Assembly (NCBI GenBank): GCA_011374735.1
Contig: DRPD01000295.1
Location: 1-15,166, forward strand
Reading direction: 5' to 3'
Source: Thermopetrobacter sp.
GTDB lineage: Bacteria; Pseudomonadota; Alphaproteobacteria; Rhizobiales; Aestuariivirgaceae
DNA: 15,166 nucleotides
How positions within the stretch are numbered: position 1 is the stretch's first letter; the number at the start of each line of letters is the position of its first letter. A program made the translations under genes and the position numbers. A model generated the notes under the pieces. That model ran no database searches, was not told the origin of the DNA, and saw nothing but the letters and a program-made list of their open reading frames with translations. Shown here in pieces: positions 1-591 of this stretch.

Positions 1-591
<591 letters not shown>

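Follow-up and report, generated by a model that had tools for sequence, protein, structure and literature searches.

An in-frame TAG codon in ligA of a draft Thermopetrobacter genome, probably a consensus error near a contig edge

DNA ligase is essential in bacteria, and draft metagenome assemblies are known to carry wrong bases, or bases from mixed strains, near the ends of their contigs. Some genetic-code reassignments were first noticed as in-frame stops in critical genes, according to a genetic-code screen (10.7554/eLife.71402), where the reading of UGA as glycine in the Gracilibacteria stands as an example of bacterial stop-codon reassignment and where false inferences are attributed to pseudogenes and contamination, one of the contamination cases being an alphaproteobacterial assembly. 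The ligA locus considered here bears comparison with each of these systems. It resembles a normal LigA gene in its domains (PF01653, HHH_2 and BRCT), its KxDG motif, its position beside recN (shared with three named relatives) and the identity of both flanks of the stop to genus relatives; it departs from one in carrying a single in-frame TAG at codon 129 and in missing its middle in the assembly. With the edge errors of draft metagenomes it shares an isolated stop near an edge, a gene split across contigs and nothing else pointing to recoding, although the error proposed here is inferred from the assembled sequence. It has in common with bacterial stop-codon reassignment that a critical gene is interrupted by a stop in its own frame, but RF1 is present, TAG still ends other reading frames, no decoding tRNA was found and there is no second case in the sample.

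The window analysed, 15,166 bases in length, is the whole of contig C295 (G000:C295:1-15166) in the draft assembly of an uncultured bacterium, so the contig truly ends at its base 1. The assembly comprises 1,836,042 bases in 410 contigs, with an estimated completeness of 92.74% and an estimated contamination of 3.77%. As read on the contig, the ligA frame runs on the minus strand from a GTG start at base 595 to base 2, with 128 codons preceding the TAG, which lies 209 bases from the contig end (Table 1). Directly beyond the stop, TTC ACC GCC GAG CCG AAA TTC GAC GGC reads FTAEPKFDG, in which EPKFDG occupies codons 133-138 and the KxDG lysine is codon 135, six codons past the TAG. The profile of the NAD-dependent ligase adenylation domain (PF01653) matches both before the TAG (E 4.8e-07, profile 2-40) and after it (window 5-208, E 6.5e-27), which argues for a single gene interrupted by a stop and against a chance open frame, and GC content at codon positions 1/2/3 is similar on the two sides (0.766/0.445/0.844 before vs 0.725/0.464/0.870 after). 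An adenylation domain with its KxDG motif is hence present, and the original prediction, of a TAG shortly before the ligA lysine with the conserved adenylation motif beyond it in a frame open to the window edge, is borne out down to base 2, adjoining the contig end.

Table 1. Coordinates of ligA features and of the adjoining recN gene in the window.
Feature	Position	Strand	Basis
ligA frame continuation (FTAEPKFDG...) to the contig edge	2..208	-	PF01653 profile 44-111
In-frame TAG, ligA codon 129, in a column that varies freely among relatives	209..211	-	Frame and alignment
ligA 5' part (codons 1-128): N-terminal domain and start of adenylation domain, without the motif lysine	212..595	-	PF01653
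recN, open, directly upstream of ligA; recN stop overlaps ligA start	592..2259	-	

Every other named gene in the window reads open as far as its stop. Between bamD and recN lies a gene for a DUF2147 protein (window 2352-2783, plus strand), and in the nearest named relative (L055) a relative of this gene adjoins recN, also on the opposite strand. In many alphaproteobacteria lpxC lies between ftsZ and bamD. The gap between these two genes measures 197 bases here (window 3744-3940) and 168 bases in L055, between an ftsZ frame that extends to 8062 and a bamD frame that starts from 8231, so that a short gap is common to both.

Across the order, PF01653 was matched in 387 of 397 genomes, with no stop inside any of the best-scoring matches listed. 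Ten assemblies of the order give two or three matches each, and in six of these the best match is weak, an example being the single-contig genome G079 with three weak matches, the best at E 1.7e-52. A search for the adenylation domain covered 30 genomes, the organism's own included. None of the 29 relatives carries a stop inside its match, and none of the 28 that cover the TAG site has one there; the remaining genome (G010), in which the match begins past the site, was omitted from the site counts and from the alignment. Comparison of the codon with ligA of close relatives, suggested alongside the original prediction, returned a sense codon in all nine of the ten other genus members that cover it. 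Among 22 aligned relatives, a subset of the 29 that excludes G010, the residue at codon 129 is A in six, D in five, E in four, V in two, Q in two, and S, R or T in one each; judging from this alignment, the TAG occupies a freely varying column. The identity of the window LigA to the nine genus members is 65-76% before the TAG and 74-83% after it, with the first 20 alignment columns left out, and pN is lower than pS on both sides of the TAG against every one of the nine, with the first 15 codons left out. Conservation of this kind on both flanks would also be compatible with a very recent mutation.

The remainder of the gene was sought in the organism's own genome with the LigA frame of G008, a member of the genus, as query (727 residues). 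Two places matched: contig C295, corresponding to G008 residues 10-204 and containing the one TAG, and C33:3-734, corresponding to residues 480-723. The C33 piece begins at a contig edge (base 3), runs for 250 codons without a stop to a normal TGA end and carries PF12826 (HHH_2) and PF00533 (BRCT), the C-terminal HhH and BRCT domains of LigA. Since there are just two matches, one for each part, C33 probably holds the tail of the same ligA, and the decay outside the window that had been envisaged as the contrary outcome is absent from the assembled part. No contig of the assembly was found to hold the approximately 275 codons that separate the two pieces, and the frame as assembled is thus broken both by the TAG and by this missing segment. 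Because the smallest contig among those viewed measures 1,514 bases, a ligA middle of approximately 825 bases may fall below the size limit of the bin, and the breaks on both sides of it suggest thin coverage or strain mixture in this region. A search of window positions 1-400 against the own genome yielded 32 matches, namely the segment itself and 31 short pieces (all with E of at least 0.0076; 40 of 145 first-look candidates scored), none of which represents another copy of the edge or a contig that overlaps it.

The TAG is most probably an error of the consensus, or an allele of a minority strain, in sequence close to the end of the contig, and the organism's own ligA is then whole. A base may have been miscalled in the consensus near the edge of C295, or low coverage or a mixture of strains may have led the assembler to retain a minority-strain base; the reads would then be expected to lack support for TAG. 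This explanation is favored by the proximity of the TAG to an edge, the splitting of ligA by the assembly, the open tail and the conserved flanks, as well as by the isolation of the stop and the absence from the assembly of both a backup ligase and signs of recoding. Against it, the sequence is good LigA down to base 2 apart from the TAG itself, which lies some way in from the extreme edge, and most other contig edges with a clear coding frame behave well. Of 35 edges examined, 30 were scorable (the other 5 read N), and a clear coding frame (a score above 10, a limit chosen after the scores had been seen) was present at 21 of them; 17 of these 21 show no in-frame stop within 300 bases, indicating that contig edges are not generally bad. 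The four with such stops are the starts of C295, C331 and C123 and the end of C11, the last two of which may simply show ordinary gene ends.

At the start of C331 (L148 1-34), approximately 34 bases of a yejE-like frame, AT-rich in their outer part, hold both a TAG and a TGA. This stretch departs from the yejE-like reading in the five genus relatives that are readable there by motif, the gene itself being matched in nine of the ten other genus members. Either a wrong tail or a genuine junction (with a mobile element, for example) could account for it; it differs in kind from the single ligA codon and lends weak support to an edge error.

The main rival to a consensus error is a true and recent nonsense mutation, carried by some or all members of the population sampled and with decay not yet begun, which we consider distinctly less likely. 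The frame and its conservation are intact on both sides of the TAG, as a very recent mutation would leave them. In carriers, however, the product would be cut short at 128 residues, before the motif lysine, and their survival would depend on suppression, leaky read-through or a second, intact allele. The first in-frame ATG, GTG or TTG beyond the TAG is codon 141, past the lysine at codon 135, and re-initiation would therefore not restore the active site. Nor does a substitute appear in the assembly: at 92.74% completeness it yielded neither a further LigA adenylation domain nor a match to the ligase profile PF01068, which does match 6 of 14 control genomes. With no other ligA or PF01068 ligase found, fixed loss of ligA would be expected to be lethal. 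The argument from essentiality, namely that a dead ligA is unexpected unless a second copy or another ligase exists, accordingly holds, and the second ligA or ATP-dependent ligase proposed as a way out was not found in the assembly as a LigA or PF01068 domain. The position of the TAG near a contig edge and the splitting of the gene by the assembly favor an assembly error over a nonsense mutation.

That TAG is read here as an amino acid, through recoding, pyrrolysine or an amber suppressor tRNA, is very improbable. Stops lying in frame within critical genes are a classic sign of reassignment (10.7554/eLife.71402), but the machinery that terminates at TAG appears intact. RF1 matches TIGR00019 with 496.1 bits (cut-off 423.25); its frame is whole, spans 374 residues and includes PET and GGQ, and it shows no sign of the loss or change that TAG recoding might entail; an RF2-like frame is also whole, with SPF and GGQ, and we take these motifs to have their release-factor roles in the two frames. 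Of the features named in the original prediction, neither a tRNA with anticodon CUA nor a pylS match above its cut-off was found in the assembly. The anticodon is absent from all 31 tRNAs typed by ARAGORN, a set that is incomplete, lacking Trp and Val tRNAs, so that a suppressor could sit in unassembled DNA. The sole pylS match scores 19.6 bits against a cut-off of 178.15, with a profile that also matches 13 of 14 control genomes, one of them above the cut-off.

Furthermore, TAG ends other coding-like frames in a sample of the genome. In a sample of 163,066 bases, window included, 109 coding-like frames, picked by GC periodicity as candidate genes and not each confirmed, end in TGA (93), TAG (12) or TAA (4), the TAG ends including the ligA stop and the stop at the C331 edge. 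Among the others, a permease on C331, presumably yejB-like, ends in TAG with the next gene directly after it. None of 25 ABC_tran matches (22 above the cut-off), which likewise sample the genome, contains an internal stop, and in-frame TAG codons in many conserved genes, as expected of genome-wide recoding, are hence not seen in this set. Of the four options entertained in the original prediction, assembly error is the most probable and a strain-level nonsense mutation less so, and amber suppression and recoding of TAG found no support, in a genome with an incomplete tRNA set. It is similarly improbable that the TAG truly lies in the sole DNA ligase gene of an organism that lives by suppression or read-through, for instance by means of a tRNA in unassembled DNA. 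Least probable of all is a split ligase with its two parts made as separate proteins: both parts are conserved, but no in-frame ATG, GTG or TTG lies between the TAG and the motif lysine, and none of the 28 relatives covering the site has a stop there.

A consensus error near the contig edge would make the in-frame TAG in ligA an ordinary observation, and the case illustrates how little weight a single in-frame stop carries when it lies close to the end of a draft contig, even if the gene is essential. Were the TAG genuine, an essential single-copy gene would be surviving on suppression in an alphaproteobacterium.
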